64,000 nt of DNA. It comes from Tribonema minus (taxonomy: Eukaryota; Sar; Xanthophyceae; Tribonematales; Tribonemataceae). Position numbers and translations under genes: made by a program. The notes beneath the pieces are model-generated. The model searched no databases, had not been told where the DNA came from, and saw nothing but the letters and a program-made list of their open reading frames with translations. Positions 1-58,959 of the stretch are shown one piece after another. The stretch is from contig JAFCMP010000510.1 of the NCBI GenBank assembly GCA_017506865.1, positions 765,669 through 829,668 on the forward strand, written 5' to 3'. Position 1 is the first letter of the stretch. The number at the start of each line of letters is the position of its first letter.

Positions 1-422
1 AAGTCAGTACGCTTCGAGTGCCGTGAGATTGGTTACGGCCGGAAGTTCAGGTAGGCCATGTTGCAGTTGGCATGAAGTAGCATGGAGACCTGGCGCTAGC
101 GCCTATCTGCTGGCAATGGTAGTGCGTATGCATTCAATTCGTAGGTGCCGGAAGCTCAGGTAGAACCGTGTTGCATCTCACCTAACCCTGACGCCCAGCC
201 ATCCTCGATGTGGACATCTGAGGGGCAGGGTTGAAGTATGCAGCAGTGCTCAACCCATTTCTGCGACCGTCGCGGCGCGCAGGCGCTGCTCCGTAGCCCC
301 CCACGCGGACTCACACTCTGCCGTCGGCACTGCAAACACCTGGCTGAAGGGCAGTGTTGAAGTGCACAGCATCAGTGTTGAAGTACGCAGCATCGCTCAA
401 CCTTCTCCGCGACCCTCGCACA
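1..422 (+). promoter_or_regulatory. 5' flank of the PPR gene with a duplicated copy of its start region
   Basis: No separate gene is seen here. Bases about 230-306 are a diverged copy of about 377-456, the sequence running into the first exon of the PPR gene. Both share a GTTGAAGTA lead, a CTCAACC block and the GCAGGCGCTGCTCCG core, but the upstream copy has lost the ATG. The region should contain the promoter and 5' UTR; I cannot place a TATA box or transcription start. Confidence 0.5.
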
Positions 423-3420
423 ATGCAGGCGCTGCTCCGCAGCCCCCCGCGCGGCGTCGCCCCCGGCCGCGGCGCGTATCTGGCGGCGCTGCGCGCGAAC
501 GCGCGCGCGCGCGCGCCGTGGCAGGGCTCAACCGCCCTGCTGAGCGCCATGCGGCACGGCGGCGGAGGCGGCGACGGCAGCGGCGACGGCGGCAGCAGCG
601 GCGGCGGCGGCGATGCGAGGGCGCGGGAGGAGGTGGTGGTGGCGGCGGCGCGCGCGGGCGACTGGCGCGCGGCGCTGGCGGAGACGGCGCGGCTGCGGCA
701 GCGCTGGCGGCAGGAGGAGGCGGCGCGGGCTAGCTCCGCTGGTGCTACGGTGGAGGGGGAGGGGGCGCAGCAACGCCGGCAGCGGGAGGGCGCAGAGGGG
801 GAGGGGGGGGCTGATACTGGTCCTGGGCCTGGGTTGAACGGGGGGGCGAAGGGGGTAGCGGGGGGGGGAGGGAGGGGGGGCAGAGGGGCGGCGCGGCGGC
901 GCGCGATGCGCGTGCAGACGTACGCGGAGCTGATCTCGGCGTGCGCGCGCGCGGGCGAGTGCGACAGGTGAGCGCTGCTGCTGCTGCTGCTGCTGCTGCG
1001 CGCTGATCGCTGCTGCTTCGGGGCTGATCTCGGCGTGCGCACGCGCGGGCGAGTGCGACAGGTGAGCGCTGCCGGCGCGTGCTGAGCGTTGCTGCGGGGT
1101 CTGAGCGCTCATGCAACGAGTGCTGATATGTTGAGCGCTGACGCGCCGGGAGCTGCTGCGCTGAGCGCTGCTGCGCCGAGCACTAATGCACCGATCGCTG
1201 ATGTTCCAGGAGCTTGCTGCGCGCCGAGTGCTGCTACGCCGAGCGCTGATGCAATGAGCGCTGCTGCGTCGAGCGCTGCTGGGCCGAGCGCCGCTACGTC
1301 AAGCGCTGATGCAGCAAGTGCTGCTGCGTTGAGCGCTGCTGTGCCGAGCACTGTTGCGCTGAGTGCTGATGCGCCGACCGCTGGTGCAATGAGCGCCGCT
1401 ATGCCAAGCAGCTGCAGAGGCCTTGCGCATCCTGCTTTGAGTTCTGTCGCGAAATGTGCTCTATCTGACGTAACGCTGAAGTACGTGAAGAGTGCAAGCT
1501 TGCGTCATCTGTAGATGCATGCGGTATGTACCAACTGGCACTGCCGTCAGCCACAGTTCTCACCTTGTGAAGCAACTGCACGCTGCGCGTTCGCCTCTTG
1601 CGCACAGGCGCACGGCCAAGGAGCTGTCGTTTGTGAAACATGTACCTACTTGAAGTACTTTGAAGTGTATTGCGTGCATCACGCCTCTCAAAGTATACAT
1701 GTGAGTGTGTGCAAGACTTCACAAGTACTAGTGGATAGGTAGGCATCACTGCCATATTCAATGATGATAATCGAAGAAGACATCAGCCGCAGTTCTTGCG
1801 TCAGCATGCACCTGCTACTTGCGCGCTGGCGCAAAGCCGAGGGGCCGTTTGCGGTAGCGCGCGCGCAGGCATGTACGTATGTATACCTTTCCAATACTGA
1901 AGACCCATGCCCTCAAACGCCAAAAAGCTCGCACACAGAAGTCTTTTGACCTGTGGATATGATGGCACTGTTTGACTCGTGGCCAATGCCTGCAGCAGCG
2001 GCGACCACGGATATTGGTGGAAGGCACTTGCGGGCAACCATCCTTTGTCACCTAGAGCTCTAAGGATCTTTTGATTCTTTTCCATGTATGTAATGGCGCA
2101 GCCACCTCCAGCCTGACGTCAGTTCTTACCTGCTGCATCAATGGCACGCATGCGTTTACTCGTAATGCACTGACGCAGGGCCGAAGAGCTGTTTGCAGAA
2201 GCACGTGCGCTGGAGGTCCGGCCAAACGCCAAGTGCTTCGCCGCCCTCCTGGCCGCCAACACGGCTGCGGGCAGGTGTGTTTTTTCAGCTACTGTAAGCA
2301 TTTTCATAGAAGTGTTGGTTTTTTCTAAACATCTGTAAGTTTTTTGTTCCACTATCTACTGTAAGCATGTACTTCGAAGTACTTCGAAGTATCACATTTC
2401 GTACGTGTGTGCACAAGCGCATGCAGGATTGTTGCAGCTCCTGTGTGAGGTGTCCCAGGTGTACTTTCTGCTTCATCTTCACCTTGATGCACAGGCGTTT
2501 TACGTGATGTAGTTCCATGTAAGGTTTGGAAGTGGGCACAGGCATACATTGACCTCACATGTCATGATTGTTGTCATTTGAATCAGGGCCACGAGAGCAG
2601 GGTCAGTAACCGATTAGGGTTAGGGTTAGATTAGGGTTAAGGTGATGGTTAGGGTTAGGGTTAGTAGTTGCAAGCGCTAACACGGCTGCGGGCAGGTATG
2701 TACGTGCACAAGCACATGGAGGATTCGTGCAGCATGTGTTTCAGGTGCGTCAGGCTTCCTACTTATATTTGTACCTCTGTGCACGGTTGCTGTACGTGAC
2801 GTACTTCCGTGGGCTAACCCTAACCCTAACCCTAACCCTAACCCAAGGTGTGTAAAGTGGGCATTGACGTACGTTGACCTCACATGTCACAAATATTGTA
2901 ATTTGAATCAGGGGCACCAGACAGGGTAGGGTTAAAGCTAGGGTTAGGTTTAGGGTTAGCTATAACCCTAACCCTAAACAGTTGCAAGGGCTCTTCGCCG
3001 CTAACACGGCTGCAGGGCAGGTTCGCGCGTGTGTGGATGCGTGTATTCTGTTTCGTGTACGACAAGCAAGCACGCGTGAGATGTTTGAAGCATGCGTCTG
3101 CACTAGCATTCCAGTGCAAGATGCCTCAATTCGTGAAAAGCACATCTTGGGGTATGTATGTAAGCGAGGTATGCAGGTACACAGGCTGTCACCGGCACAC
3201 TTTGAACTCTTGATCTCCAGGTACTGAATTCAGAATAAGGTTGCCAGCATCACACCCTGCAACCGTTCGCCTAACCCTAATTTAGACCCCAAAGGCGGGA
3301 GCGCCGTGCTGTAATCCTGACCGTAATCCTGATCGTAACCCTACCCCTGCAGGTGGGTACGCGGGCGCAGCCTGCTGCTCAAGATGCCGCAGCGCGGCCT
3401 GCGCCCAACGGTGACAGGAG

Positions 3421-3463
<43 letters not shown>

Positions 3464-6400
3464 GCTGTGCTGCTGCTAACTGACCTTTACCCTGAAGACA
3501 GCAGCACTGTGCTGTAACTTTGGCCCTAACCCTAGCCGTAATTCCACCCCTGAAGGTGGGAGCGCGGTCGCAGCCTGCTGCTCAAGATGCCGCAGCGCGG
3601 CCTGCGGCCAACGGTGAAGGAGTACTGGCGCGTCATCCACGCGTGCGCGCGCGCGGAGCAGTGGCGCGCCGCCATCGACCTGCTGAGGGTGAGCGCTGCT
3701 GGGTGATGATGCTGAGCGGTGATGATTCAACTTCAATGACAGTTTTAGGCACTTCAACTTTGATGAAATGGTATGCGAAGCGCTGCCGAGGCAGGCAGCA
3801 CGTGTTTGGTAGATGTGGACAGCGGCGCGCCGCCCGCAACCTGCCGAGGGTGAGCGCTGCTGCGTGATGATGGTGAGCGGTGATACTTCGACTTCAATGG
3901 CAGTAGCCGTAGGCACCTCAACTCTGATGGTACGGTAGCCGTCGGCAGCGGCATGCCGCCCTTGGCCTGCTGAGGGTGAGCGCTGCTGCAACATCAATAT
4001 TGGGTTCCTGCTCCAGTATCGCACGCGTGCGATCGTCAGTGTTTAGGGTTAGGGCTGGGGTTAGGGCAACCAGCTTGAGAAGTGTCGATGGTGGGGGGTA
4101 GGGCAATCACCTCAAAAAGTTGATGTCTGGTTCATAATCCAGTTCGGCGGGCCTGCAAGACAGACACTGTTAACGATAGACGCGACGCCTCTGTCGGCGC
4201 CCCATGTGCATGCTTGCTGAACATCGTCGCATGCGCGCACGCGGCGGTCGCGCATGAACGCTGCTGCAAAATTGCTCTTTGTTCTTGAGCAAAGCTTCCT
4301 ACAATATTGATGTTGACATTGGCAGTTGAGCCATTCGTCATCTGGGAGAAGTAGTTCATAGACATGATGGCCCTGATGAGATGGAAAGCACGGAAACGCT
4401 GGGTGCTGCTGCGGTGACACTTCAACTGTGAGGATAGGGCGGCAGACACGGCGCGCGGCACAGTCGAACGTGATCGAACGAGTTCTACAGTACTTCATCC
4501 TGCGCTGCCGGCGCTGCTGCTGCCTCTGCTGCCACCGCCGCTGCTGCTGCTGCTGCAGCAGCAGTGTGGCGTGCCGACCGACGTGCGCGTCTACATCTAA
4601 ATATATATATATGACTGCAGCAGCGGCGACCACGGATATTGGTGGAAGGCACTTGCGGCTAACCATCCCTTGTTACCTAGAGCTCTACGATGTTTTGATT
4701 CGTTTTTCATATGTATCTTAAGCCGCCACCGCCGCAGCTGCTGCTGCTGCTGCTACTGCTGCTGTCGATCCTGCTGATCATGCTGCTGATCGAGCGGTCG
4801 CTGCTGCGGCTGTTGCTGCTGCTGCCGCCGCTGCTGCTGCCTGTGCAGGACATGCAGCAGCGCGGCGTGCCGCCTGACGTGCGCATCTACAATGCAGTCA
4901 TCGCGGCGTGCGCGACAAAAGCCAAGGTGCGCGCTGAAGTTGAAGTTGAACTGTCGCAATCCGTTAGTTGACGTTTAATTCAGGTGCCAAAGTTATGCCT
5001 CCAGGCCCCTTGCGGGAGCAGCTGGCGGGCAGCTCGGAACCGACGTGCAGTGAGCTGAGCGATGCTGCCATCGCTGCATGCTTGACGAAAGGCAAGGTGC
5101 GCAGTCGTATTCCCAGCACGTACTGCCATGCTAAGGTCAAGTTGAACTGTCGCAGGCGGTCCGCCGAGGCGCGGCGCACCTGACACAAGTATTTGAAGTT
5201 GCACGTGTCACTTTCAGTGTACTTGTCACTCAACGGTTGAGGTCCCACACGATGCCAGCTGAAGTGTGTTCGCGTCTATGTCTAATCCTAACCCTAATTG
5301 AGGCGCCTGGTGCAGTTTGTGGCAGAACTGACATGCAGCGTTCGAGCTTAGGGTAAGGTTTAGGGTTAGGGTTTGGGATTAGGGCTCAAAGTTCGGGTTC
5401 GGGTTAGGGTTACCACATTGCCCTTTACGGTTTCTGTCCGCACTGCGCGTCGCAATTTTCTGCGTCGCCTTCCACGAGAGGGGCAGTGTAACTCTTAGGA
5501 TTAGAGCTAGGTTGGGGTGAACAGGGTAGGGTTGGCGCTGCTGCGCACTTCACCACATCAGTGTCTCGCGTATGGATACCTTGAGGGTTAGGGTTAGGGT
5601 TAGGGTTAGCAGCGCCTCTGTCAGCGTGCCCCGCGTGCTTTCTCGTTTCACTCACTGTCCAGAGATACCTCAGGCGCAGCACTCCATGTCGCCGTCAATT
5701 GAGCTCCCCCACCTGGTGCACCTAACCCTAACCCTAACCGAATCGTATTCTAACCCTTCCACAACTGTCCGCGCCGCTTTTCGGCAGCGCGACGACGCTC
5801 TTTATCCTTCAGGCACTCTTCATACCTCAAGCACAACATCCATGTCGCTGTCAAGCGAGCTCGGCCATTCTGACGCACTGTTGTGCGCCGCTGTTCGGCA
5901 GTGCGACGAAGCTCTGGCGCTGCTGAAGGAAATGAAAGCCGTCCAACGCACCTAACCCTAAGACTAACCCTTGTACAACTGTCCCGTCTGCCCTATCCCT
6001 GTTACAACTGTCCTGTCTGCTTTTCGACAGTGCGACGAAGCTCTGGCGCTGCTGAAGGAGATGAAGGCCGCCGGCATTGAGCCGAGCACTGTCACGTACA
6101 ACAGCACCATCAGCGCGTGCGGCCGCTGCCAGCGCCTGAAGGACGCAATGCGTCTCTTCACGGCGATGCAGCGCGAGGTGCGCCACCTGTTGAAGTTGCT
6201 GTACATATGTTCTGCGCGGCTTGTGCGCTGGCACCGCTTCATACATACCGTTATCGGACGCAGCGCTACGGTGGTCAGGGTGCCAGCGCGATGAGCCTCG
6301 TCAAAGTCGACTGTTGAAGTTGATGTGTAACTGTTCTGCATACCATATCGGACGCAGCACAATGGTCGTTACAAAGGCAGTCGATGCTGAAGGTGCCAGC

Positions 6401-9400
6401 GCAATGAGCCGCGTTGAGGCGATGGAGCGCAAGGCGCGTCGCCTGTTGAAGTTGCTGTGCCGTACTTCCATCTGCATACAGCTCGCACCCGCGTGCGTGC
6501 ACTGCTCTCAAAAGTGGTTGGGACACAATACCTTGTTGAAGAACTCAATGGTCAAACTGCCAGTGCCTGAAGGACACCTGAAGGACACCTTGCGCATCTT
6601 CAAGTCCATGCAGAATGTGGCGCATCACCTGTTGAAGTTGCTGCACTGGTTCTGGCGCCCCGTCCGCGAAGGCCCTGCCCCTGCGCACGTGCATCGTCCT
6701 ACATACTTCAGAGTGTTGTATGGGACAGCGTTGCGGTAGTTGCTAGGGGTCACTTAAAGCTCAACGTCAAGCGTCAAAGTGCTCTCTGGTGTCCAACCTT
6801 AACCTCGTCCAACCCTGTGCAACCGCACTACAGAAGCACTCAGCCAGCATCTAAGCGGCGGCGGTGACGGGCGCGTGGCTGCACTTAAACCCTACGTACA
6901 CTCAGGGTTAGGGTGTTGTACTTTGGAAGTCTGGTACGGTATCAGGGTAAGGGTGAAAAAAGAGAGTGTGCGCAGGAACCTACATCACCTTAACATTGAA
7001 GTCACACAGCCCCCCCCCCCCCCGTCGCCACCTCCCTGCAGGGCGTCGAACTCAACAACATCACCATGCTGGCAGCGCTCAACGCGTGCGCCAAGGCCGG
7101 CGACGCGGCGGGCGCCAAAAACACAGCTCAGTTGCTTACTTTCATGGAGTATCCATCACCATCAATGCTGAAGCACCCCCCCCCCGTTCCCCTTACGCGC
7201 CCCGCCTGCAGGGTGTTGAACTCAATATTATCACCATGCTGGCGGCTCTCTGCGCATGCCACCAACATCAATGTTGAAGTCCCCCCTCCCTTCCCCCCCA
7301 CCGCAACACCACCTGCAGGGCGTCGAACTCAACAACATCACCATGCTGGCGGCGCTCGACGCGTGCGCCAAAGCCGGCGACGCGGCGGGCGCGGAGGAGC
7401 TCATTGACGATTTCATGCCGCAGCACGGCCTGCCGCGCACGGTCGCCGCGTACAACTGCATGGTTCACGCGCACGCCGCCGCGGGGAGCGCGTGGGACGA
7501 CGTCAGCGCGTGGCTCGCGCGCATGCGCCAGAGGTGAGCGCTGCCACCCCCATGCTGTGCAAATATGCGTCATGTGTAATCATGCATGCTGCGTGTAAGT
7601 ATTCGCAGAGTTGCGCTAAAGTTGGGGTCGGGGTCAGCACGCCGCGGCGCGGGGCGACGTCAGCGCGTGGCTCGCGCGCATGCGCCAGAGGTGAGCGCTG
7701 AGCGCTGCCCACGCTGTGCGAATGTACACACGCTGTGTGAATATACACGCTGTGTATGGATAAACATGCGCACGGTGGCCGCGCACAACTGCGTCGTGCA
7801 CGCGCACGCCGCTGCGGGGAGCGCGTGGGACGATGTCAGCGAGTGGCTCGCACGCATGCGCCAGAGGTGAGCGCTGCCGCTACGCTGGGCACTGTTACAC
7901 AGTTGAATAAGGGTTTAGGGCGCACAAGTAGGGTTAGCCACTGCACGCCGCCGCGGGGAGCGCGCGGGGCGACGTCAGCGCGTGTGGCTCGCACGCATGC
8001 GCCAGCGGTGAGCGCTGCCACTCTTTACGCTTTGCAATTGTACACACGCTGTGTGAACACACACAAAGCGTAAACATGCGCAGAGTTGCACTCAAGTAAG
8101 GGTCAGGGCTAGCGTGCCGCGGCAGGGGGCGACGACGGCATGCGGCGCGCGCGTGTGCGCCAGAGGTGAGCTGCCGCGGAGATTTGAAGTTCGAAGTAGG
8201 GGTCAGTAGAGAGTAGGGTTCAGCGAGGGTGGGCGCCAGGCAGAGCGCTGCCCAGTTGAAGTAGGGTTCAAATCGGCGCGGTGATGGGGTTGAAGCTACC
8301 GAGCCGCGGCGGGGGAGCGCGTGGCTCTTGCGCGTGCGCCAGAGGTGAGCGCTGCCGCTGCGCTGAGCGCTGCCGCACACTTGAACTAGGGCTCCGGGCG
8401 CAGGACGAGGCTTAGCGACGGCGTGCGTCCGCAGGGACCAACGTCGAGCGTGACTGCTGCGCTGAGTACTGCCACGCAGTTGAACTAGGCTTCAGGGTGC
8501 AGGACTAGGGTTAGCGACGCCGTGCGTCGGCAGGAACCAACGTCGAGCGTCGCCATAGAGTTAAAGTAGGCGTTCAAAGCACAGAACACCTGCCGCGTCA
8601 CCGCAGGGCGCTGTGTGTTAGGCTTTGGGGTAGGGTTACGCGGCAGCGCTTGGAGTGTCGCTGCACCTTACCCCTACCCCTGAACCTAACAGTAACACTA
8701 CCCCCCTATCCCCAACCCTTGCCTCAACCGAAGGGGTGTCGCACCGGATGCCGACGCTATCGCGCCCCCCCCTCGCCCCTTCTGCCAATCCCACCCCACT
8801 GCCACACATACCCCTAAAAAATTCCAGGGTTAGGGTCGGGGTTCGGTGCAATCGTTCACGCGCACTCGCGTGCCTACGGCGGCTTAGGGTTGGGCGTAGG
8901 GTTAGGCTTAGGGTCGGGGCGAGGGTTGGCCCCTGATGCTAACAGGGGCATCTTGCCTGATGGGCCCACCGTGCCATGGATCCGCGCCGCGCGCCGACCC
9001 TAGCCGCACCCCCTAACCCTAACCGTCACTCTCCCCCCCCCCGCCGCCCCCCCCGATCCTGACCCTGCGTCGCCCTGCCCCAGGTCCCCGCGCGCACATA
9101 TATGTAGATGCTCCGCACATGTGCAGGCGCCGCTGACGTTACCCGTACCCCTATACCCCAGATTATTCTACGCTACCCCCTAAACCCCCCTTTGTGCTGA
9201 CAGGGGCGTCATGCCCAACGCGGACACGTACACGGCGGCGCTCAGGGCGTGCGCGCGCGCCGGCGCCGCTCACCGTACCCGTACCCGTATCTAACCAACC
9301 TTAACCCTATGCTACCCCCCCAAACTCCCCCCTCATGCCAACAGGGGCGTCACGCCCAACGTGGACACCGATACCTTCCCCTAACCCTACCCGAGCCCTG

Positions 9401-12286: not shown

Positions 12287-15200
12287 TCACGCCTTGGCGC
12301 GCTTTCGCGTCGCGCCCGCCGGCGCGGCGGCGGCGCCGCCACTCGGAGCGGCAGCAGCGCTTGCGCCGCTGCCGTCGGTCTTCGCCTTCTTGGCGCCGCC
12401 TTTCTTCACCGGCTTGTCTTCCGCCGCAGCGGGGGCGGCGGCGGCGGCAGCAGCGGGCTTGGCCTTGCCCTTGGCGGCCTTGGCAGTTGCCGCCGGGGCT
12501 GCGGCCTTTGCTGCGGGGGGTTCGGCAGCGCCGCTGTCCGCTGCTGCCGCGGCGCCATCTGCCTTGCCCCGCGCCGTCTTGGCCTTCTTCTTTGCGCCCT
12601 CCGCGGGCGCGGCTGCTGCCGCCGCCGCCGCCGCCGCAGCGTCTACCGCGCGACCGCGCTTCTTAGCGGCCTTGGCGGGCTCGTCTGGCTTCGCGACTGC
12701 GGCCGCTGCCGGTGCCGCCGCCGCGTCAGCAGCAGCGGCGGCGGCGGCCGGCGCCGCCTTGCCTCCTGCAGCTGCCCCTGCTTTGCCGCCCTTCTTCGCC
12801 TTGCCGCCACCGCTGGGCGCCTGCACTTCCGCAGCTGGCGCAGCCGCTGCCGCCGCTGGCGCAGCGCCACCCCCCTTCTTGCCCGCTTTCTTGCCTCCCC
12901 CCTCAGCCGCAGCGGCTGGCGCTGCTGCCACAACAGCTGGCGCAGCCGCTGCTGGCGCCTGCGCGGCGCTACCCTTCTTGCCCCCTTTCTTGCCCCCTTT
13001 CTCAGCCGCAGCAACTGGCGCTGCTGCTGCCACAGCCGGTGCAGCCGCTGCTGGCGCCTGCGCGGCGCCACCCCCCTTCTTGCCCGCTTTCTTACTCCCC
13101 CCCTCAGTCACCGCCGCTGGCGCTGCCGCCGCCGCGTCCGCAGCTGGAGCAGCCGCTGCTGAAGCCTGCGCGGCGCCGCCCCCCTTCTTGCCCCCTTTCT
13201 TGCCCCCCGCCTTGGCTGCTGCCACCGCCGGCGCCGCTGCCTCAGCCGGCGCCGCTGCTGCCGCTGCAGGCGCCTGCGCGGCGCCGCCCCCCTTCTTGCC
13301 CCCTTTCTTCCCCCCCACCTTGGCCGCTGCCGCCGCCGCCGCTGCTGCCGCCGGCGCCGCTGCCTCCACAGCCGGCACAGGCGCCGACGCGACTGCCCCC
13401 TGCTTACCGGCGGCCTTGGCTTTCCCCACCTTCTTCTCCGCGCCAGTCGCCGCCGCCGCCGCCGGCGCCGCCGCACCCCCCTGAGGGCCGCCCTTCCCCC
13501 CCCCCTTTTTCCCCTTCCCCTTCTGAGCAGCCGCTGCCGGCGCCGGTGCCGCCGGCGCGCTGCCGCCGCTGTTGGTCTTCTGCTTCTTCGCGGCCGGCTT
13601 GGCGGGGGTCGCTTCGACCTCGCCCTCGGAACCGTCCTCAGAACCTTCCTCGGAAGCGTCTTCAGCGCCGTTCTTCGCGCGCTTGCGCTTAGGCGCGGGG
13701 AGCTGCTTCTGCTTTCCGGTCACGTTGCGCAGGTTCAGGTCCTTGTCCTGCAGCGGTAGCGGGTAGCGCAGCACATGGTGTTGTGTCAGTCGCTGCGCAC
13801 TGCAATGCATTTGGCCTCAGGCTTAGGTTAGCGATGGCGCCTAATGTATTCAGTCTAGTGGTTTACGGTGCATCAGCAATCCCCCTGACGTCACGCAATT
13901 GTCCTGCAGGGGTAGCGGGTAGCGTAACACATGGTGTTGTGTCAGTCGCTGCGCGCTGCAAGGCAGTAAGAACCTTGGGCTTAGGGTTAGGGTTGGGCTT
14001 AACCTTCAGGTTTGGGTCATTTGGCGGGCTGCGACTGGCAACGTGGCTCAACGCATGACAACGGTGATCACGACAGCCGGTGTGACAACGGGTTCTGTTC
14101 TTGTTGCGGGGGGGGGGGGGGGGGGGGGGTAAGTGTGGGATCAGGTGTTTGTTCGTACTGCGGGGGGAGGGGAGAGGGGGGGGGGCGGGTGATAGCACAC
14201 AGACCGGATCCTCTACATACTGCACTTGCATGCAGATTATGGTGCTTGGAGTTTCCTTGTTCACTTTCAACGTGCCGTATGCAGCATTGCACTGCAACGT
14301 GACTGCGTCATTTGAAAGCCTGACCCTTGTTCTAGCCCTAATCCTAACCGTAACCCTGCTGCGCAGGCCTGAGTTGAGTGGGGGCTGCCCCAATAGCAGA
14401 ATTGGAAGATAGAAGCACATTGTTGAGCTGAAAGCGTGCCGCACGTGGTGTGCGCAGTGCTCACCGGTGACTACGTCTTGCGTTGCGCCGGAGCACTGAC
14501 CTAGGCTGAGCTTATGTAGATGCTGGAAGCATGTTATTAAGCGCAGTGCTACACCGTGACCGCATCTGAAGTGGCGCCGGAACACAGACCTTGGCTGAGC
14601 TGATGTGGATGATAGAAGATGGTTGTTAGCTCGCAGTGCTCAATTATAACCAGAGCTGAAGTTGTGCTGGAGCACAGACCTTGGCTGACCTGATGTGGAT
14701 GATAGAAGCATGTTGTTAAGGGCGCAGTGCTCAATTGTGACCGCGCTTGAAGCTGCGCCGGAGCACAGACCTTGGCTGAGCTGACGTGGATGATAGAAGC
14801 ATGTCGTTAAGGGCGCAGTGCTCAATTGTGACCGCAGCTGAAGTCCCGTCAGAACAATGTCAACGGCCAATGTAGCCGCACATGACACCCCAAGTACTAT
14901 GCATTATAGAAGTACTGCTGTTAGGACAGTTGAAGTTTTTGTTCTTCTTGTGAGCGTTCAGTTCCGCAGCAATTCCAAGAGCACGGATAACACAGTTGCG
15001 GGCCAGTTTTGTTCAAGGCATGTTGTTGAGCATGACGTGCCTTAGGGTTAGGGTTAGAACTAGGCCAACCCCAGTTCAAACCCTATTTCTAGAATTTACC
15101 CTAAAGGTGCCTTAGCCTTAGGGCGTGCCTTAGCCTTGGGGTTAGGGTTAAGTGCAGGTATTAGGCCAACCCGAATTCTGCTTGATTTCTAACCCTAACC

Positions 15201-42935: not shown

Positions 42936-43016
42936 GCTGCTGCGTTGACGCAAGCTTTTCGATTGCATAGGCAACCCGGCCTCCCTTGGGCCTTTATAAA
43001 TACAAGTCCATACGTA
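42100..43016 (+). mobile_element. 3' end of a LINE-like retrotransposon (copy 1)
   Basis: Consists of the coding remnant plus a short 3' UTR of about 80 bp ending CTTTATAAATACAAGTCC and ATACGTAC. The 3' end is defined by comparison with the inverted copy at 49541-49794: the two match from 42762 to 43016 and diverge beyond. No poly-A tail is visible. The left limit is uncertain. Confidence 0.65.
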
Positions 43017-43067
43017 CCTAGAAGGGGGGATCTCGAGATGCCATATGGCGGCGGCGTCGTTTGAGTG

Positions 43068-43195
43068 GTTGTCATTGAGACACTTCCAGATAGTCACACG
43101 ACTTGTAGATTCCGTACAGCATGCTTCAAGTGAGATACCATTCGTATGGGCTTTCTTGCGCCCTGAGCGAGAATTAATAAAAAGTACACCCATGA
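43068..43195 (+). mobile_element. Repeat B, copy next to the LINE 3' end
   Basis: Contains GTTGTCATTGAGACACTTCC, TGTAGATTCCGTACAGCATG, CCATTCGTATGGGCTTTC and GCGCCCTGAGCGAGAATTAA. It closely matches 36530-36655 and begins about 50 bp after the LINE tail, so it may be part of the same larger element. Confidence 0.7.
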
Positions 43196-44066
43196 AGACG
43201 CACCCCGTGGACTGGACTCGAAACTGGGGAGGGCATTGCCCACGGGGCCAGGTTCAGACAGAGGGATACCCACATGCGTAAGCAGAACAGCAAGCTGAGT
43301 GAGTGACACCCAGTCAGGGCGGCAGCATGGAAAGAAGAGCATCCTAACATACATGCACATACTGCACAAGAGTACTTGGAAAAGTGATTGGATTGTAAGG
43401 CCTTGCAGGCTGTCGTCGCATCTACTTACCACTGGACAAATACTTCAGTTTTAAGCCGTGCTTCGGAGCCAACTTCAACAGTACGTTACAGCGCCATGGC
43501 AGCCATCAGCGCCACCGCAAACGCTGCTGCTCATTTTTGCCATCATTTGCTTCACTTTCACTGCCGCTGCCGCTACCACTGCGCCCGTGATAGCGGCGGC
43601 CGTGGCTTCCATGACTATACGACGGCACGGTGCTTACAGCAGTTGAGCTGCGTGCTTCAGTTGCACCCGCTGCAGTAAATCTAATGGAGCACTGCTGCGG
43701 CTCACCATCACATGCATTTGCTTGTGCCGCCGCTGCCGTTAAACCATGACCAGACGGGGGGGCAGCAGCGGCAGCTTTGACGGTGCATTGCAGACGGCAG
43801 GAGCGCGGTGCTGGCAGCAGCAGTTGCACCTGCGCACTTGTACCTACTAGCGACTACTGTAGACGTGCATAGGTCTCAAGGTCTGGCAGAGAGGACTGCC
43901 GCCCTCACCACGAGCAGCCACTAGTAAACTTCACCATCATGTAGAGTCACAGCAGCAGGAGCAGTTGAACCTGTGCGCTCGTGCCTGCTGGAGACGTGCA
44001 TAGGTCTCAAGGCGTGGCAGAGAGAGCACTGCTGCCCTCACCACAGGAGTAAACTTAAGTGGAGCG

Positions 44067-47000: not shown

Positions 47001-50000
47001 AGTTGGAGGCTATGGCACAGCTTGAGCTCAAACGCTTGATTGAAATAATTTTTGCCTGCATGTTTGAGCCAATCAGCTGGCCTCCTGCACGTGCTATTGC
47101 GAACACTTCCATAACTTCAACTTGAAGTGACACTCACATTTTGGTCGGCGACCCAGCCCCCCCGTCGGCAGTGCCCAGCACAGTGACCTTGACCCCCTTC
47201 AGCAGCAGCCCGGAGGCGCCGATGGATGAGCGCTGCTGCCTGTTTGGGCTGAGCGCTGCTGCAGCAGCGTTTCGCTGAGCACTGCTGCTGCTCCTGCTGC
47301 TGCTGCTGCTGCTGTTGCTGCTGTGGCGGTGGCCGGCGCTGCTGCCGCGAGCGCCGCCGCTGCTGCCGCCGCCGCCGGATGCCGATGCCGCCGCCGCCGC
47401 CGCCGCCGCCGCCGCTGCCGTCGCTGTCGCTGCTGCCGCCGCGCACATGAGCGCGGCGCACGCCGCCTGTAGGGCGCGTCAATGCATGTTGGCTGCGCAG
47501 TTAGTGCTGGAGCATGTGGCGGGCCTGCCTGCACGCTGAGCATCGCTGCTGCTGCTGCCGTCGCCGCAGCTGCTGTGTGAACATGATCGTCGCTGCATGT
47601 GCTCAAGTAAGTCAACTTTTACATGCGCCAGGCTGATGCGGGGTGCGCAGAAATGATTTGGTGGCTGAAGCTGTGCCATAGTCGTGCCGCAGACGCACAG
47701 GCATCCCCCCCACACACACCCACCCCGCCTGCCTCCCCCATCCCGTCACAATGGCTCGAATGTGGCGAAGTCGGCGCCACAAGCCAAAAAACAGAAACCA
47801 GCAGCGGCATGAAACAACACGAAGCAAACGGACAGTGAATCTCAACTTGGTCAACTTCAACCTGGCTGAGGTGGTGACAGAGCTTGCTACATTGTGACTT
47901 TTTCTTCCTCGAGCACCGTACTTCGACGCGCTGACTTGACTGACGCTGGCACGCGGGCAATGCTTGTTGCCTTTTCTTTTCAAATGTCTTCCTTCTCACC
48001 TCCCTCTCCGCCAGTATCACGATGGCAGCGATGTCGTAGCACGTGACGGCGTGCAGCAGCAGCATGGGCGCCATGCGCAGCGTGCCGTCGTGCGCGAGTG
48101 CCGCAGCGGGCCTGCGCAATGAGCGGCAGTTACACAATGAATCTTGAATCAACATGTTGTCGTTTCATGAATATGCGCAGCGTGCCGTCGTGCGCGAGTG
48201 CCGCAGCGGGCCTGCGCAATGAACGGCAGTTACACAATCGTTCATGAATCATGAACCAATATACGTTGTCGTTCTTGGATAATCTGATGCCATGCGCCGC
48301 GTGCCGTCGTGCGTGAGCGCCGCGGCGGGCCTGCACAATCAACAGCAGGTACACAATCATTCGTGAATCATGAATCAACATGTTGTCGTTTCATGAATGT
48401 GCGCAGCGTGCCGTTGCGCGCTAGCACCGCGGCGGGTCTGCGCAATGAACGGCAGGTACACAATCAGTCATGAATCGATGAATCGACGACTGGTTTGTGC
48501 ACAAACGACTGCTTGCCAGTGACGCGGCTTTTCTTTTTTGCGAGCGCCGCGGCAGGTCTGGGCAATGACTGGCAAGTGCACTTTCGTTCATGATCATGAA
48601 TCAGCACACATTGTCGGTGCATGACAGATTTCATGCCATGCGCAGTGTGCCATCGTGCGCGAGCGCCGAGGCAGGCGTGCACAATTGCAGTTACATGATC
48701 ACGCCAGAATCGTGACTCAATACAGAGCAGTTTGAAATAAACAACATGTACGCTTTGAAGAACCGTGAGCTACCATAAACTTGAAGTTTATACATACCCA
48801 GTAGTGGTGCTGGACATTGCGGCGACCTCGCGTCGAACGCGCTGCGCGCGCGCCTCCGCCACCGACATGGCCTGCCCGTTGACCCCTGCAGCAGCCGACA
48901 GCCAGATGTACGGTTGGGACTAGTTAGTGTGGACATGACATTTTTATTAGTTAGGGTGTCAGAACGAGTTCAGCCCATGGTTAGGATCAGTGTCAGAATG
49001 AGTTCAGCGTAGGGTTTGAGCTGAGTAGGGTTGGTGACGTGGCCTGCCCGTCGACCCCTGCGGCGGCGGGGCGGTGCAGGGCTAGGTTAGGGGTAGCCAA
49101 GCTCAGGGTCAGAGCCAGGGTCAGCTTGTACAGGAGACCCCTTCGCTGGAAAGCGGTGCTGCTGGGAAATGGTGCAAGTGCGGTCGAGGTCGAGCAGGCG
49201 TCATGACCCTACCCCTAACCCTAACCCTAACCCTAAGTGGCGGAGGCATCCACATGCATGGTCTAAGGTGAGGGCTTGCGGGAGTCAGAAAACAGTGAGG
49301 GTTGGGGATGAGGTTAGGTAGGGTTAGGGTTAGGGTTAGTTTGGGTAAGGGTTAGGGTTAGGGTTAGGATTAGGGTTAGCCTAACCCTAACCCCAAGGTT
49401 CTAAATACAGCTCAACAGTCCACGCAATCAGATTGGAGCAGCCGGTGCGCGCGCAGAGGGGTTCAGCAGCAACAAGGGTTGGCAGTCTCCTCATGTGCTG
49501 AGTGAGTGCGGCTGCTGAGCATTTAGTTAGGGCATTGTACGTATGGACTTGTATTTATAAGGGCCCAAGGGAGGCCGGGTTGCCTATGCAATCGAAAAGC
49601 TTGCGTCAACGCAGCAGCCTAGTCTGCGCTGTGCCCTAGGAGTTTGGATACCGGCGCCGAAACACAGCCCAGCATTCGCGCTCCACGTGTGTATGCCATG
49701 ATGCGCTCCGCCAACTCCCGCGCCAGCGATATGCTCAGCTCAATGTGGATCTGGCGCTTAGCTAACCCGGCCTTGCGTAACACATCTGCCATTGTACTGC
49801 AGCGCGCGTGCGTGCAACACCGTGACCGGGAGCGCTCGGGGCTCACAGTTGCGTACACCCCGTGTCACCACTTTCATCAGCAGTGGTGACACACGTGCGG
49901 TTCTGTTAACACGCGTAGATGAAACACCAACTCTGGCGTTGACCGCTTGTGATCATCCTGAAGTGCTCACAACTGGCGATAGGTGCCACGCCGCCCTGCG

Positions 50001-53000
50001 GGTGGCAGGGGCCGCAGAATAGACAGGGATCGCATACGTACATGCCCTGCGCCTGTAACCCTCTCTCAGTCCTCTTGAAAGCATACCTGGGGCTGTTTGT
50101 GACACAGAAGAGCTTAGGGTTAGGGTTGGGTTTAGTGTTACGGTTAGGGTTAGGGTTAGGGTTAGGGTTAGGGTTAGGGGTAGGGTTAGCACAATGGTGC
50201 TGAATCAAGTGATTGCTGTCTGTCTGTCGGGCCTGCCGTACTGGAGGAAGAGCCCAACTATCATAGCGATGTACTTGCTATTAATTCTTGCTCAGGTGTG
50301 CTTGTTCCAGCGGGTCTGCCTTGCTAGCTTCAGCTCAAGAGGCGGAGACTTTCATAAATGCGTCAGGTTGTTTACAGGCATCTGCTCCCATTGAGCTGGT
50401 GCACGCGTCCCGCTACTGCTACTTCACACTTGAGGTACATGAGAAATTTAATGCACATCATTTCTGCAGCAGCGCTCACCGGACAGCAGCGCCAGCCGCA
50501 CGTCCTCCATAAATTAGGGTTGGGTGAGCATGTGCATACACCTCACACTTGAAGTACACTAAAAGACATTGAGGCACGTCACTTCTGCAGCAGCGCTCAC
50601 CGGACAGCAGCGCCAGCCGTACGTTTCCCATGGGTCAGGGTCAGGGTGAGCCTGTACATATACTTCATGTTTGAAATGTGTGAGAAGACATTGAGGCATG
50701 TCACTTCTGCAGCAGCGCTCACCGGACAGCAGCGCCAGCCGCACGTCCTCCATGGTGACCACGGCGCTGGCGCGCCTGGCCTGCGCAGCATCAGGGCAGC
50801 AACGCTCAGCGTTAGGTTTGAGCGCCGCTGTGCGTCATACCTGCTGTGTATCATGCCTAATGCTAACCCTAACCTTGACACTATACCTCATCCCAACCCT
50901 CACCCTAACCATAACCCCAACCATACAGCAGGGCGGCAGCGCTCAGCGTCAGGTTGAGCGCTGCTGTGTGTATCATACCCAACGCATAACCTTAACCTTA
51001 ACTCAAACTCTGGCCCCAACCCTGACCCGCTCGCGCACCTGGCCTGCGCAGCATCAGGGCAGCAGCGCTCAGCATTAGGTTGAACGCAGCTTGCGGATGA
51101 TCCTCCGAGCACCGTGACATCTTGAGGCAAGCAGTGCAGGCACGACGCGGTGACTCCTACCCTCATCCCAACCCAAAAACCCTCCCGCGCAGATTGTGCA
51201 AGTGTACGCCTGTTTGGATGCGTTCCCAACTCGTACCCTAACCCTACGCCTCGTCCTGATGCATGATGTAGCACCGCTCTAGTATCCACAGCCGCCGATA
51301 TGAGCGAAGACCAACTCATCAAAAGACTCGTGGCCGAGTCTCTAGACTCGGCTCGCCTTCATCTGACGCTAACGCTGTGCGCAAAGTTTGTTAAACAAGA
51401 CTCGTGGCCGAGATTAGAGAACTCTACTCGCCTTCATGCGCTTCTCCAGCAGTGAGAAGACGTGCGTCTTGTGCTTGACGCGCGCCGCGTGCAGCAGCGC
51501 GTCGACCAGCGGGTTGCGCAGCGCGGCGGGGATGAGCCGGTGCTTGACGCCACGCCGCGCCATGAGCGCTGCCTCCGCAGCCACCTGTTGAAGTGACGAT
51601 GGCAAAGCATGAGGGACGGGCATAGCATCAGGAGAAACGCAAGGACTAAACAATGTGTAACAATGTGTTGTGGGTTGTGTAACGTGGCTGGGACGAGCCT
51701 GTGCTTGACGCCGCGCCGCGCCATGAGCGCTGCCTCCGCCGCCACCTGTTGAATTTGAAATTGCGTGAGGGGCGGCGCGCAGCATCAGACACTGACGGAA
51801 CTAAACACCGTGGCAGAGTAGGACACCCAAGGTGGACCCAATGCAAAGTGCAGAACAGCACTAGACCAGGGCAGGCTGGTATTGCAAAGAAGTGATTATT
51901 GTGCAGGTGCTTGTGCAAGCGGAGAAATAGCCCTGAGTCAGGGTCGGAACAGTACCGGACTGGTGCTGGAACATGCAGTAGTGGACATACAGGAGAAACT
52001 GCCAGAATGGAGAAACCTGTGTAGGTATGCATGCACATGCAAGTAGGGTATGTAGGTATCATACTCCGTCAGAAACGAAAGGACAGGCCAGGAGATGTGT
52101 CAGCAGGTTGCGCAACGCAGCAGGACCGGGCCTGTGCCGCGCCTCCTCGACGCGCCGTCGCAGTGAGCGCTGCCAAAGCGCAACTACTGTCGGTTCGCGG
52201 TGCGCGCTTCGGGTTGCTAGGATGCGTCAGGGCAAGTGGCTGTGACAACTGCGAGCAGCAACGTGTGCCCACCATCAGGCTGAGCGCTGCAGCGGGGCGA
52301 GCGCTGCCTCCGCAGCGACCTGCCGAACGAGGGACGCGGTTGAGATGCGCATCTGAAGTAGGATGTGTTGCTTGGTGTGGCGCGAAAGGGTGGGTTCAGC
52401 GGCTTGAAAGATGCAGCTGCTTCAAGTTGCGCCGTGCTGTACCATGAGCGCGCTGCCATTGCAACGACCCGTTGAGTGCAGACCGCGTCCAGGATGCACA
52501 TGAGCGTCGGGATGCGGCTAGGGCTAGGGCTAGGGCTAGATGCTCGGTGGCCGCGTCGCGCAGTGGCTCGTTTGCCATCGCGCTGGGCAATGCATCGCGC
52601 ATGATGCCACGATACTGTAAGCTAGTTGGAGCCAGATGATGTAAGCTCGTTGGAGCCAACCAAGATTTTGGAATAGGTGAGGGCCACTTGACACACACAA
52701 GGGGCGCGGTAGGGGGAAGGGGGGGGGGGGTACATGTATCGTTCACCTTTTCGTCCTCCATGCCCTGGTGCTCGCTGTGTTGATTCCCCTGGCGGTGGCG
52801 GTGCGAAGCGATGCTGCGGCTGCCCGCCAGCGTGCTGCTGGCGATACTGCTCGCACCCCCCATGACGCTGCAGCGGGAAGTCGCCGAAAGAGCGCGTGCG
52901 ATGCACACAAACTGTAACTGCGCGCTGTAACCGTCAGTGTGAGCAACTTGAAGGGCTGGTGAGGGCTGACGCTGCAGCAGGAAGTTGCAGAAACGGCGCG

Positions 53001-56000: not shown

Positions 56001-58647
56001 ACTCACCGCATCTCATTGAGCAGAACTTCAACGCCGACGCCGTCGAACTCGTAGATCTCACGCAGGCGAGCGCTGTAGGACTCCAGCCGCTCCGCGTCAA
56101 TCTGTTTTGACGAGTGCAGCAGTTGCGCGTTACCACTGCTCAGCATTGTATACACCTCAACTTTGAAGTTTGCTGAAAGAGAAAGGAAGTTACGGTGCGA
56201 GTAGGTAGTTTGCTGGGGTCTGCGCAATGCAGCAACGCCCAAGGTCTGCTGATATTGTACGACTCCAGCCGCTCCGCGTCCATCTGCTCCGGCAGGCGCA
56301 GCGGTCGCACGTTACCACGGCTCAGCATCGTATATACCTCAAAATTGAAGTTTGCTGAATATTTGAGAGAATACGGGTTTACAGTATGAGGAAGTTGCTG
56401 CAGTCTGACATTGTGCAGTCATTAAAGTACTTGCAACAAACGGGATTCACGCAGGCGCGCGCTGTACGACTCCGGCCTCTCCGCGTCTATCTGCTCCAGC
56501 GAGTGCAGCAGTCGCCACTCAACAATGCCATGTGTATGTGTAGCTGAAAGAAACGGGATCACAACACAAGCAGTTTGCTTGAGTCTGAGCAGCGCAGCGA
56601 CGCCCAGGATCTGCTGATGCTGAATGACTTCGGCCTCTCCGCGTCTGTATGCTCCGGCATGGGCAACAGTCGGTTACCAGTAATCGCGGTGTTGTCGCTT
56701 TCAAAGCAAGAGAACAAGTCCAGCAGGGCTCACAAAAATAAGGGGATAATGCTGTTGGCGGCGGTCGCGGCAGCCTAACGTGCAAGAGGGATGTATTCTA
56801 CACCATTGAATTTTCTGTTGAAGTAGTGTTTTCGGGCCTGCACGCACGCAATACAGTAGGTATGCGCGGGTACAAGTCAACGTGTCGCACCTGCTTGACC
56901 GTGTTCTTGTGCAATACAGAAGGTATACGCGCGCAATACAGTAGGTATACCTGCTTGACCATATTCTTGAATGCCAGGATCAGCAGCTGGCGCCGCGCCG
57001 CTGTCACGATGCTGTAGCTGCAGTGCGCACATGCGGATATACAGCGTGATTGGGAGTGAGATCATGAATGTTGTGCGGCGGTTAGAATGATAGGGCATGT
57101 AGAAGGCACTAAAAAACAAAAACTACACCAAGGGGTCACCTGGAAAGGGGTCTTTGCGGCATCCGGTTGCAGCACTGTCTGATCTCTGCTCCATTGTTTT
57201 TTCTGCTCTAATCTTTGTACAAGCAAGAAGGCATCATGGAAGCCACAGAAAGGCAGCTGCGCATCGTTGTGAGTCCAAAACAGCGTAGAAATTTATGGTT
57301 CCCCTGCGTAGGGTCAACAGTAGCGTGTCTTTCTTTCCCTTTGGAGTGCCTGAAAGAGCCAACATCGCTGCGATCAGACAAGAGCATTCGAAATCTCAAC
57401 TTGAACTTTGGGGCACTGGCGAGGATCAGCGCTTGCAAAGGGGTGAACGAGGGTGACGGTCAGGGTCGAAGCTCAACCCTAACCCTAACCCTAACCCCAC
57501 CCTCACCCTTGTCAAGTCCTCGACTCATTCATCCCTCGCGATACAAGTTTGAGCGCTCGTGACATTCGAGTGACAGAGGTGCGGCTGTAGAGCACACTTC
57601 ACGCGTGATTTGAACGCGTCAAGCATGCGCCGGCAACCAGCTGGAAACACATATTCTGTTTGCTTCCTGCGTGCCTGCGGCTGTCGCGTGATGTCATGTG
57701 ATGGCCTTCTGGTGGCGCTTTCCATGACTTTCCGCTAAGGGTTAGGGTTAGGGTTAGAGTCAGGCTACCAGGATCTACGTGTGGCTTGCTAACACCTTGA
57801 AGGTGTCTCGATACGCATGTAAAATCTCTTGGCGGCACTCATCCCGCGCCCTGCTGCGCATGACAGCTCCCTCGTGGAAACGCACGCGCTCCAAGGGGAC
57901 CAGGCGTAGACTGGGTACTTTTTGCAAGCCCCCGGGGGAGGTTGGCAGTGTGCCAAATCACACCTCTTGCTGACAGGCAGCCAGTGAGTGTTAGGCACAG
58001 CTGCTGCAGTAGAGGCGATAGGTGGTAGGCACTGTGACAGTAAAAAGCCCACCCACTCTGCCCTTCTTGCACTGAGGGGGTAGGGTACAGGTGAAAAAAG
58101 GGGGGGGGGGGGGCATTTGAAGGTGCTGGGGTACCCAGGTGGTTTCGCCCCTAGCTCTTTGCCGTTTTTCCCCCTTTCCCCCGCAGCCAGCAAGCGACAA
58201 TACATCAGTGTTACAGTGAGACATTTGCTCTGTTGTTTGTGCCCTGCCTGCTATCCCCCCAAAGCTTGTAAAAACACCTCAAGTGTCGTGCGAGCCCACC
58301 TGCAATCGCCTCTTTTCGCCTTCCTTGTGCTGCATCTACTGACCTGCACCAGTGCCGCTGGCACGTGATGATCTCTCTGCGGTACTTTTTGAGCGCCCTC
58401 TGCCCGCGCGAACTCTATTTGCGAAGGTGCATGCTCATGTCCCCAACACAGCGAGCAGCATGCACCACCGCCCACAAAATTCAGGCAAAAATGCCTGCAA
58501 TCGCTCTGCTCACCTGCGCCAGTACCGCTGGCACGTGATGATCTTCTGGCGGTACTTTTTGAGCGCCCTCTGCGCGCGTGACTGGCCCGCCGCCTCCAGC
58601 ACTTGCCGGAGGATGTCCGCAGCGTCCGCGCGCTTCTTCAGCTCCGC
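44067..58647 (-). CDS. Unidentified helical protein with an IQ-like segment, at least 15 exons, 5' end outside the window
   Basis: Exons, 5' to 3' on the minus strand: 58647-58514, 57017-56951, 56101-56007, 54844-54764, 54034-53978, 52867-52747, 52614-about 52547, 51584-51432, 50780-50723, 48885-48798, 48111-48000, 47466-47138, 46347-46278, 45297-45241, 44357-44067. Phases agree at every junction except the unclear 3' end of the exon at 52614. The visible ~590 aa begin with a charged helix and an IQ-like RALKKYRQKIITCQRYWR, then IDAERLESYSARLREIYEF, TAQQLLWRRTGPPKEPS, a Ser/His-rich stretch (SIASHRHRQGNQHSE), GVKHRLIPAALRNPLVDALL, MEDVRLALLSGVNGQAMS, RMAPMLLLHAVTCYDIAAIV, a poly-Ala/Gly/Ser stretch, EDAAIAELQGLIEMLQTQ and an Ala-rich end NYAAVFAAARGVVVSRISG. 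I do not recognise the family; a cytoskeletal or flagellar calmodulin-binding role is only a guess from the IQ-like and coiled-coil segments. One donor (after 51432) is GC rather than GT. Confidence 0.65.
44840..45080 (-). repeat. Donor-side copies of the 45.2 kb exon
   Basis: GCAGTGCTCACCTGCGCCTG followed by CAGCATTTCTG/CAGCATCTCCAT occurs at about 44858-44890 and 45038-45078. This repeats the end of exon 45241-45297 (GLIEMLQTQ) and its donor, with a shared GTGGACTGTGGACTG flank, at a spacing near 180 bp. Confidence 0.8.
47220..47470 (-). repeat. CTG/CGG-rich low-complexity coding stretch
   Basis: Within exon 47466-47138, long runs of GCC/CCG and CTG/CAG codons encode poly-Ala, Gly/Ser and Ser runs. 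CAG/CTG trinucleotide runs of about nine units occur near 47280-47325. Length polymorphism is likely here. Confidence 0.7.
48155..48690 (-). repeat. Acceptor-side copies of the 48.1 kb exon
   Basis: Copies at about 48173-48232, 48290-48340, 48400-48450, 48530-48570 and 48640-48685 share GCGCAGCGTGCCGTCGTGCG, CGAGTGCCGCAGCGGGCCTG and a flanking ATCATGAATCAACATGTTGT block. The real exon starts at 48111 on the minus strand. Confidence 0.85.
49206..49398. repeat. Interstitial telomere repeats, both orientations
   Basis: A CCCTAA run (about 49206-49236) is followed by a near-perfect TTAGGG run (about 49313-49380) and, directly after it, CCTAACCCTAACCCC. This opposed arrangement lies 150-330 bp from the inverted LINE fragment. 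Confidence 0.88.
49541..49794 (-). mobile_element. 5'-truncated LINE tail, inverted copy 2
   Basis: Reverse complement of 42762-43016, differing at only a handful of positions that I noticed. It includes the end of the reading frame (ADVLRKAGLAKRQIHIELSI … LLGHSAD), the stop and the whole 3' UTR to CCATACGTAC. Copies sharing an exact 3' end but different 5' ends are the hallmark of target-primed reverse transcription. Confidence 0.85.
50114..50189 (+). repeat. Interstitial TTAGGG repeat run
   Basis: About 12 units of TTAGGG, seven of them perfect and contiguous, lie in an intron of the minus-strand gene. Confidence 0.92.
50455..50640 (-). repeat. Donor-side copies of the 50.7 kb exon
   Basis: TCTGCAGCAGCGCTCACCGG followed by ACAGCAGCGCCAGCCGCACG occurs at about 50463-50510 and 50583-50627 as well as at the true exon end (50708-50752). 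The flanking TTGAGGCACGTCACT block is also repeated; the spacing is about 120 bp. Confidence 0.88.
51660..51755 (-). repeat. Acceptor-side copy of the 51.5 kb exon
   Basis: GGGACGAGCCTGTGCTTGAC, GCCGCGCCGCGCCATGAGCG and CTGCCTCCGCCGCCACCTGTTGAA repeat the first half of exon 51584-51432 and its acceptor. A weaker version lies at about 52450-52480. Confidence 0.85.
55570..56520 (-). repeat. Copies flanking the 56.1 kb exon
   Basis: Donor-side copies (ACTCACCGCATCTCGATGAG, GACGCTGTCGACCTCATAGA) lie at about 55576-55635, 55690-55748 and 55813-55855. Acceptor-side copies (CCAGCCGCTCCGCGTCCATC, TGCTCC) lie at about 56262-56320, 56455-56515 and 56632-56660. The real exon is 56007-56101. Confidence 0.85.
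57474..57758. repeat. Two short telomere-type runs in opposite orientation
   Basis: CCCTAA units at about 57474-57503 and TTAGGG units at about 57736-57757, both in the intron after the 58.5 kb exon. Confidence 0.8.
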
Positions 58648-58895
58648 CTGCAAACCGAGACAATGATAATACGGTTATTCACCGATGACATGGGCACTAC
58701 GCACATGCTGAGCGTGCGTGTCCGCTACCACAAATGTGATGATTCATGTATACCGGGGGTGCGGCACGGTACGGCCTGCACGGAGGCGCAGGTGCGTCAA
58801 TGCTTGAACTTTATGTGTGACTGGCCCGCCGCCTTCAGCACTTGCCGGAGGATGTCCACAGCGTCCGCGCGCTTCTTCAGCTCCGCCTGCAGACA
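58328..58895 (-). repeat. Copies flanking the 58.5 kb exon
   Basis: About 58335-58402 copies the exon end and donor (CCGCTGGCACGTGATGATCT, GGTACTTTTTGAGCGCCCTC). About 58818-58892 copies the exon start and acceptor (CACTTGCCGGAGGATGTCCA, TTCTTCAGCTCCGCCTGCAG). Confidence 0.88.
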
Positions 58896-58959
58896 CAGAC
58901 ATCAGTTTTTATTACCAGTGAAGTACCGGTATGTCACCGAGACAGCACCTGTCACGGCT

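Follow-up and report, generated by a model that had tools for sequence, protein, structure and literature searches.

Introns of Tribonema minus carry decaying partial copies of adjoining exon edges, probably through repeated local duplication across splice junctions

The window analyzed here is a 64,000-nucleotide stretch of the Tribonema minus genome (Xanthophyceae; contig JAFCMP010000510.1, positions 765669-829668, in assembly GCA_017506865.1 of 158,181,000 bases and 554 contigs) whose introns carry partial copies of the exon edges that they adjoin. Three of its four genes, A, B, and C, were modeled by hand from reading frames. Gene A, on the plus strand, is PPR-like, a name taken from reading alone. 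Gene B, on the minus strand, matches the ribosomal-L1 domain (Pfam PF00687; E 1.1e-5, 25.6 bits, below the curated cutoff of 32.2), and gene C, on the plus strand, we take to be Nup62-like. For the fourth gene, D, which was spot checked at two exons, Pfam scans of its three minus-strand frames gave no family up to E 1. Rfam gave no match in the window at gathering thresholds.

The 45 bp at either end of the 22 exons of genes A to C, including one first exon, which lacks an acceptor, and two last exons, which lack a donor, were compared with both flanks in both orientations, with flanks of other genes as the control. The last 45 bp recurred downstream at 15 of 22 exons and upstream at 2, and the first 45 bp recurred upstream at 13 and downstream at 3. 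The initial annotation had described just this arrangement, exon ends copied downstream and exon starts upstream, and it held. The five matches in the wrong direction are tentatively ascribed to exons of 39 to 71 bp with overlapping ends. Inverted copies numbered 0 at either edge, and chaperonin-gene flanks used as the control gave 0/880. At least one junction-spanning family was present in all 19 introns tested in these three genes, and both spot-checked exons of gene D had an exon-start copy upstream. Comparing the window with itself yielded 167 direct and 33 inverted matches, of which 145 and 8, respectively, were less than 1 kb apart; some copies form full tandem arrays detected by TRF, for example at 17325-17889, 39354-39848, and 48070-48482.

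The coordinates of copies given below as "about" come from reading. In gene A (+), exon 1 (421-967, donor at 968) is followed by an exon-end copy at about 1022-1061 and then GT, and exon 2 (2179-2274) by exon-end copies at about 2675-2695 and 2990-3020, with GT after each. Exon 3 (3556-3688) has an exon-start copy at about 3353-3420 and exon-end copies at about 3826-3849 and 3955-3976; exon 4 (4849-4926) has an exon-end copy at about 5066-5096, exon 5 (6031-6177) an exon-start copy at about 5902-5944, and exon 6 (7319-7533) exon-start copies at about 7042-7120 and 7212-7250. All of these rest on reading and the edge test, with self-comparison in addition for exons 3 and 6. Exon 6 also has exon-end copies at about 7645-7691, 7780-7866, 7943-8009, and 8150-8166.

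In gene B (-), the first modeled internal exon, b1 (26126-26224), has several exon-end copies downstream, at about 25500 to 26010. Exon b5 (20894-20988) has downstream exon-end copies at about 20761-20815 and 20655-20710, a decayed one near 20480, and a short acceptor copy near 21085-21110. Around exon b6 (19305-19454) lie upstream exon-start copies, at about 19580 to 20130, and exon-end copies at about 19016-19090, 18872-18930, and 18722-18798. Exon b7 (18036-18103) and its downstream tandem array occupy 17325-18103, the units consisting of exon end plus GTGAGT with a period of about 163 bp. Exon b9 (15353-15412) has upstream exon-start copies near 15500-15542 and 15750-15799 and, near 15222-15267, an exon-end copy of 46 identical bp (33 exonic and 13 intronic) beside TTAGGG-like sequence. 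The last exon of this gene (12287-13748) encodes an alanine-, lysine-, and glycine-rich repetitive tail, in which a 108-bp tandem repeat is an in-frame exonic tandem duplication.

Gene C (+) has copies at every exon from c1 to c6. Exon c1 (35042-35112) has an exon-start copy near 34925-34955 and an exon-end copy at about 35268-35310, and c2 (35956-36084) has one of each, at about 35762-35805 and 36180-36232. At c3 (37062-37166), exon-start copies lie at about 36730-36753 and 36930-36948 and exon-end copies at about 37281-37357, 37461-37536, and 37641-37716, with a period of about 190; at c4 (38233-38358), exon-start copies lie at about 37882-37932 and 38066-38116 and an exon-end copy at about 38441-38476. 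The span 38915-39859 takes in exon c5 (39794-39859) and, upstream of it, exon-start copies in tandem with a period of about 200 bp (four by reading), and the last exon, c6 (40462-40581), has an exon-start copy at about 40291-40336. The two spot-checked exons of gene D (-) are 58514-58647, with an upstream exon-start copy at about 58817-58886 preceded by CAG, and 51433-51583 (ends approximate), with an upstream exon-start copy at about 51698-51745. On the plus strand, an element that appears to bear a reverse transcriptase, an identification from reading, contributes long open frames at 58582-63385, where tandem repeats are few. Minisatellites of a GAGCGCTGCTGC-like word lie at 1133-1387, 21372-22081, and 34646-35063; the word also stands behind several donors (GTGAGCGCTGCTGC), and the minisatellites may be expansions of the first intron bases.

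The pattern extends beyond the window. A genome-wide Pfam search for chaperonins gave exon-by-exon matches in which some stretches of the profile were doubled as partial copies, upstream of the exon start (contigs C51 and C135) or downstream of the exon end (C5). Outside the window, the test drew on ten chaperonin genes from eight other contigs, with 51 exons between them. For CCT, HSP90, and RPB2 exons, the splice sites were chosen with a simple score close to the profile edges rather than from transcripts. The last 45 bp of the 51 exons recurred downstream at 17 and upstream at 0, and the first 45 bp upstream at 14 and downstream at 0; after splice-site refinement, the counts were 17 and 13, with none in the wrong direction. 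Inverted copies again numbered 0 and 0, and random flanks gave 0/612. Together with the 0/880 of the window genes, this rejects chance as an explanation. Coverage by local direct repeats was 29.6% in the window, 21.2% in the chaperonin loci (95.8 kb), and 23.3% in six pieces of 8 kb, these last placed by hand at round coordinates on contigs known from the repeat search rather than drawn at random; direct and inverted matches less than 1.5 kb apart stood at 145:8, 146:5, and 98:3, respectively. Junction copying is thus confirmed as real and as extending past the window genes.

Classifying 222 local repeat pairs from 13 genes reveals what is copied. Donor-spanning pairs numbered 54 against 9.5 expected under random placement and acceptor-spanning pairs 45 against 10.2; intron-only pairs, some of which link two copies or lie in unannotated exons, numbered 113 against 150.8, and whole-exon classes were absent among the 222 where about 13 were expected. 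Most exon-edge copies (100/119) come within 3 bp of the exon edge, and 1/119 extends to the other edge. The exonic part of a copy has a median length of about 51 bp, and copies differ from the exon by about 9% (median). Among 66 edges with copies (127 copies in all), 35, 16, 7, 4, 3, and 1 edges had 1, 2, 3, 4, 5, and 8 copies, respectively. The nearest copy was within 230 bp at 59 of the 66 edges (mean, 151 bp; standard deviation, 36), successive spacings were in a similar range, and spacing varied little with identity or with how much exon had been copied (rho 0.24, p 0.06). The initial annotation had the nearest copies as tending to be the longest and best preserved; alignment score bore this out (nearest above farthest at 22 edges versus 8, p 0.016), whereas identity alone did not (18 versus 11, p 0.26).

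The copies decay as noncoding DNA. The 127 copies contain 80 gaps, 53 of 1 bp, 19 of 2 bp, 4 of 3 bp, and 4 of 4 bp, and 9 of 2136 codons are stops. Mismatches at codon positions 1 to 3 (7.8, 5.8, and 14.6%) fit what a free copy would show against a constrained exon, base composition being not fully corrected in that comparison. The copied unit takes in intron sequence past the splice site, beyond the consensus: in 55 copies, identity past the donor was 0.84 at +4, 0.78 at +6, and 0.64-0.69 at +7 to +10, with unrelated donors as the reference at 0.36, 0.33, and 0.24-0.27. Because the copies run past the splice site, their template was DNA or unspliced RNA, and an origin from spliced mRNA is ruled out. 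An assembly artifact is unlikely, since the copies differ from the exon by the median divergence given above and by many small indels. Splice sites, which were picked for AG and GT, were ordinary (36 of 96 AG-preceded exons start with GT, and 68 of 94 GT-followed exons end in AG), and AG|GT sites occurred at 16 of 67 introns.

These 67 introns, lying between adjacent profile matches, constitute a stricter count, in which introns beside profile gaps are dropped because intron-only families in chaperonin genes are partly unannotated exons; small hidden exons are possible even there. Junction families occurred in 38 of the 67, and in 19 of 48 outside the window genes, so the initial annotation's "nearly every intron" stands for the three window genes tested and does not carry over to the others. 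The families cluster by gene (0/5000 permutations reach the observed clustering), and genes are hot or cold as wholes. Introns with junction families are longer (median, 1066 bp, n=38) than those without (535 bp, n=29; p 2e-5). With groups named after the data had been seen, and one further gene counted as cold for coverage, the hot genes have 39 introns (median, 1066 bp) with 48 junction and 12 intron-only families and 40% of bases covered by duplicates, and the remaining genes have 28 introns (median, 545 bp) with 3 junction and 4 intron-only families and 7% coverage. The suggestion that such copies are the main building material of introns can therefore apply at most to the hot genes.

Four chaperonin loci (L040, L041, L044, and L045) are nearly repeat-free, and coverage at the remaining chaperonin loci is 21-44%. 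Eight of the chaperonin genes we take to be the eight cytosolic CCT subunits; local repeats abound at four of these loci and are nearly absent from the other four. Subunits of one complex would be expected to be expressed alike, yet their loci split four to four, which disfavors expression level and points to chromosomal context. Interstitial telomere-like TTAGGG arrays lie in window introns, for example at 2614-2664, 24581-24650, 49298-49379, and 50114-50189, and are on the whole denser where junction copies abound. TTAGGG density is 2.3 per kb in hot introns and 0.45 per kb in cold ones. Across 30 pieces, eight of them from the window and one a repeat-rich locus (L039) without any TTAGGG, repeat coverage rose with TTAGGG density outside the repeats (rho 0.56, p 0.001) but showed no correlation with GC (rho 0.07). 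The words TTGAAG/CTTCAA are also frequent in the introns studied (hot, 2.8 per kb; cold, 1.9 per kb).

The geometry, the spacing, the noncoding decay, the intron sequence within copies, the longer introns, and the gene-level clustering are observed, and we consider it probable that they reflect repeated local duplication of about 150 bp across splice junctions, with the intact exon kept and the copies left to decay. A stretch straddling a junction would be duplicated next to itself in DNA, repeatedly. Where it spans a donor, the intact exon would come first and the extra partial exon end would land in the intron behind it; where it spans an acceptor, the intact exon would come last, with the extra partial exon start in the intron before it. 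Because splicing would remove the extra piece, the protein would be unchanged and the copy free to decay, while duplications that change the message would be purged by selection. Introns of affected genes would thus reach about double the length of those in unaffected genes. Gene conversion by the nearby intact exon would probably refresh a copy's exonic part as the intronic flank drifts. The duplications may originate in the repair of staggered nicks with fill-in, to which the TTAGGG beside copies (see below) would lend weak support. We put forward only tentatively the more specific proposal that a junction-aimed mutational process at nucleosome-like spacing acts in hot genes, with the intact exon rewriting its copies and introns growing from exon edges.

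The preservation of flanks weighs against repeated duplication with decay as a complete account. In copies with at least 90% exonic identity, the match extends a median of 53.5 bp into the exon and only 10.5 bp (donor, n=42) or 13 bp (acceptor, n=26) on the intron side, unrelated sites matching for 3 bp past the junction. Of these copies, 62 have 30 or more aligned exonic bp, and flanks above 95% of unrelated flanks, although diverged, were seen in 30 of the 62; homology over the full unit is present in some TRF arrays, and 10 of the 62 (16%) had flanks of at least 75% over 60 bp. Plain tandem duplication with neutral decay gives no reason why a copy's exonic part survives longer than the intronic flank beside it. 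Conversion is inferred; what is observed is that exonic and flank identity are decoupled. Accordingly, the tandem duplication across junctions that the initial annotation proposed is supported by geometry, decay, and intron length and leaves the poor preservation of the flanks unexplained. On the same side of the balance, no transcript of a window gene was found in searches with the ribosomal-L1 gene, which gave 3 and 6 proteins, none shown to be from this species (best match, from a metagenome, E 3.5e-43), the first query having fallen short of the full protein. A rubisco search yielded two fragments.

Simulations, which were coarse (random sequence, equal exons, few replicates, and hand-chosen parameters), add to these difficulties: no setting fitted all observations. 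Runs with exon-to-copy conversion did come near the observed flank score and extent (flank scores, 0.60-0.69; extents, 2-9 bp; 17-34% of copies at 75%); in one pair of runs from a 250-bp start, the flank score was 0.79 without conversion and 0.69 with it (observed, about 0.65), and the match past the junction shrank from 32 bp to 9 bp (observed, 10-13 bp). Of the conversion runs that best matched the flanks, the closest to the observed 16% of copies at 75%, at 17%, had a junction share of 0.60, against 48/60 families, or 0.80, in hot genes. Conversion with uniform duplication gave junction shares of 0.88-0.89 from 150-bp introns and 0.72-0.76 from 250 bp, and starts of 150-250 bp predicted 82-90% duplicate coverage, against 40% observed; a 535-bp start, near the 545-bp cold median, gave only 0.40-0.44. 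A bias toward junctions or exons, or extra nonduplicated DNA, still seems needed. An early view, that a several-fold excess over random placement means targeting, is weakened because short starting introns yield much of that excess for free.

Targeting is the core of one possible alternative, which holds that about 50 exonic and 10 intronic bp are duplicated at junctions or exons, with unrelated filler, sometimes TTAGGG-rich, making up the unit to about 150 bp; breaks at nucleosome edges, R-loops, or splicing-coupled nicks may be the cause. We give it appreciably less weight than repeated duplication across junctions, with which it shares the tandem step, and the probabilities of the two overlap. 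It would account for the 51 junction against 16 intron-only families in the 67 introns, where random allowed placement expects 14.1 junction families of 69, for the short match into the intron, and for the exon-end copy of exon b9, which ends abruptly on both sides. TTAGGG also stands within 45 bp outside the inner edge of 11/125 copies, against 110/2500 random intron pieces (p 0.044). Filler runs with short units came near the observed flanks and coverage (flank score, 0.63-0.65; extent, 8-20 bp; 0-30% at 75%; coverage, 0.33-0.49), but with uniform placement their junction share was 0.21-0.37, so that strong targeting would be required, and a 5-fold junction bias reached only 0.62-0.70 while overshooting intron length (2276 and 3036 bp). 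Full-length tandem arrays with homologous flanks, and the 30/62 copies that keep diverged flank homology, also speak against filler. Simpler, and unlikely, is a plain account in which ancestral introns were short, tandem duplication struck them uniformly, the copies underwent nothing but neutral decay, and the junction bias is a matter of geometry. Runs from 250-bp starts do give junction shares of 0.43-0.91, depending on the assumed divergence, with spacing near 150 bp and exonic identity of 0.84-0.94; they predict 65-92% coverage against the 40% of hot genes, and eight plain runs predicted flanks of at least 75% in 55-83% of well-preserved copies, far from the 10/62 observed. Intron flanks may mutate faster than exon-derived copies, which, if the difference were large, would rescue plain duplication; judged by eye, some arrays show similar identity in their flank and exonic parts. 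Gene conversion or junction targeting seems to be needed.

Two further accounts are very improbable. Many copies retain GT or AG and long near-identical exonic stretches, as functional alternative exons or parts of longer proteins would, yet 76 of the 80 gaps are not of 3 bp, and a coding function is rejected on gap sizes; the other exon edge is all but never reached (1/119), and chaperonin exons cover the Pfam profile in order, leaving the copies redundant. A CCT-alpha protein spliced from another contig matches a transcript-derived EukProt protein (P0001), apparently from the same species, at 96%, the next matches among the best 120 of 7998 being algae such as Ectocarpus, Vaucheria, and Ascophyllum at 81-83%. 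The two differ at splice joins and by about 17 residues without a counterpart in our model, at an intron without a repeat family; the transcript-derived protein has no repeated exon piece, a weak argument given the single junction family of this gene. Insertion of introner-type transposons or of reverse-transcribed mRNA fragments is scarcely credible either. A dispersed repeat of about 200 bp is indeed present in some of these introns, but each junction copy corresponds to its neighboring exon, lying on one side of it and in a single orientation; the copies include intron sequence and match no sampled flank of other genes. This dispersed repeat lies in the window at 1886-2093, 19745-19913 (minus), 4611-4715, and 22257-22390, recurs at 91-94% identity on many contigs (1814 first-look candidates, 40 scored), and is probably part of a longer transposon, flanks being alike in the few other loci read.

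Among known systems, internal gene duplication, reportedly treated by Gao and Lynch in 2009, is likewise local and inside genes, but here no whole-exon pair was found, only partial exon edges in introns. The potato RdRp gene shows tandem duplication crossing an intron-exon boundary, and the same source describes Rogers's 1989 and the vertebrate ATP2A1 cases of introns born by duplication (PMC4974935). In those cases, as here, the duplication is in tandem and the peptide can stay unchanged through splicing of the extra piece; they concern single new introns, whereas in T. minus introns that already existed apparently grew by repeated events in many genes, an exon edge having as many as eight decaying copies at a spacing near 150 bp. 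Introners (PMC9860276) are dispersed families that create introns, also in algae, and are linked to nucleosome positions; they too are a recurrent source of intron DNA, but every copy here derives from its own neighboring exon. Direct repeats near splice sites were read by Rogers and Bendich in 2025 (PMC11782384) as insertion footprints of 4-30 bp (mean, 11.4); ours also lie close to intron-exon borders, but are several times longer in their exonic part alone and usually about 150 bp away. Among the titles listed by literature searches, which showed only part of some result sets and reached neither most subscription papers nor any bioRxiv preprint, none describes the pattern. What seems new is its scale, the spacing of about 150 bp, the split into hot and cold genes, and the unequal preservation of exonic and intronic parts.

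Intron lengthening is commonly attributed to transposons. In T. minus, the source of much intron DNA is directly readable as the adjoining exon. Each copy is a fossil of known source, so that duplication, decay, and conversion become measurable within one genome, and chromosomal context as the cause of the division into hot and cold genes can be tested.

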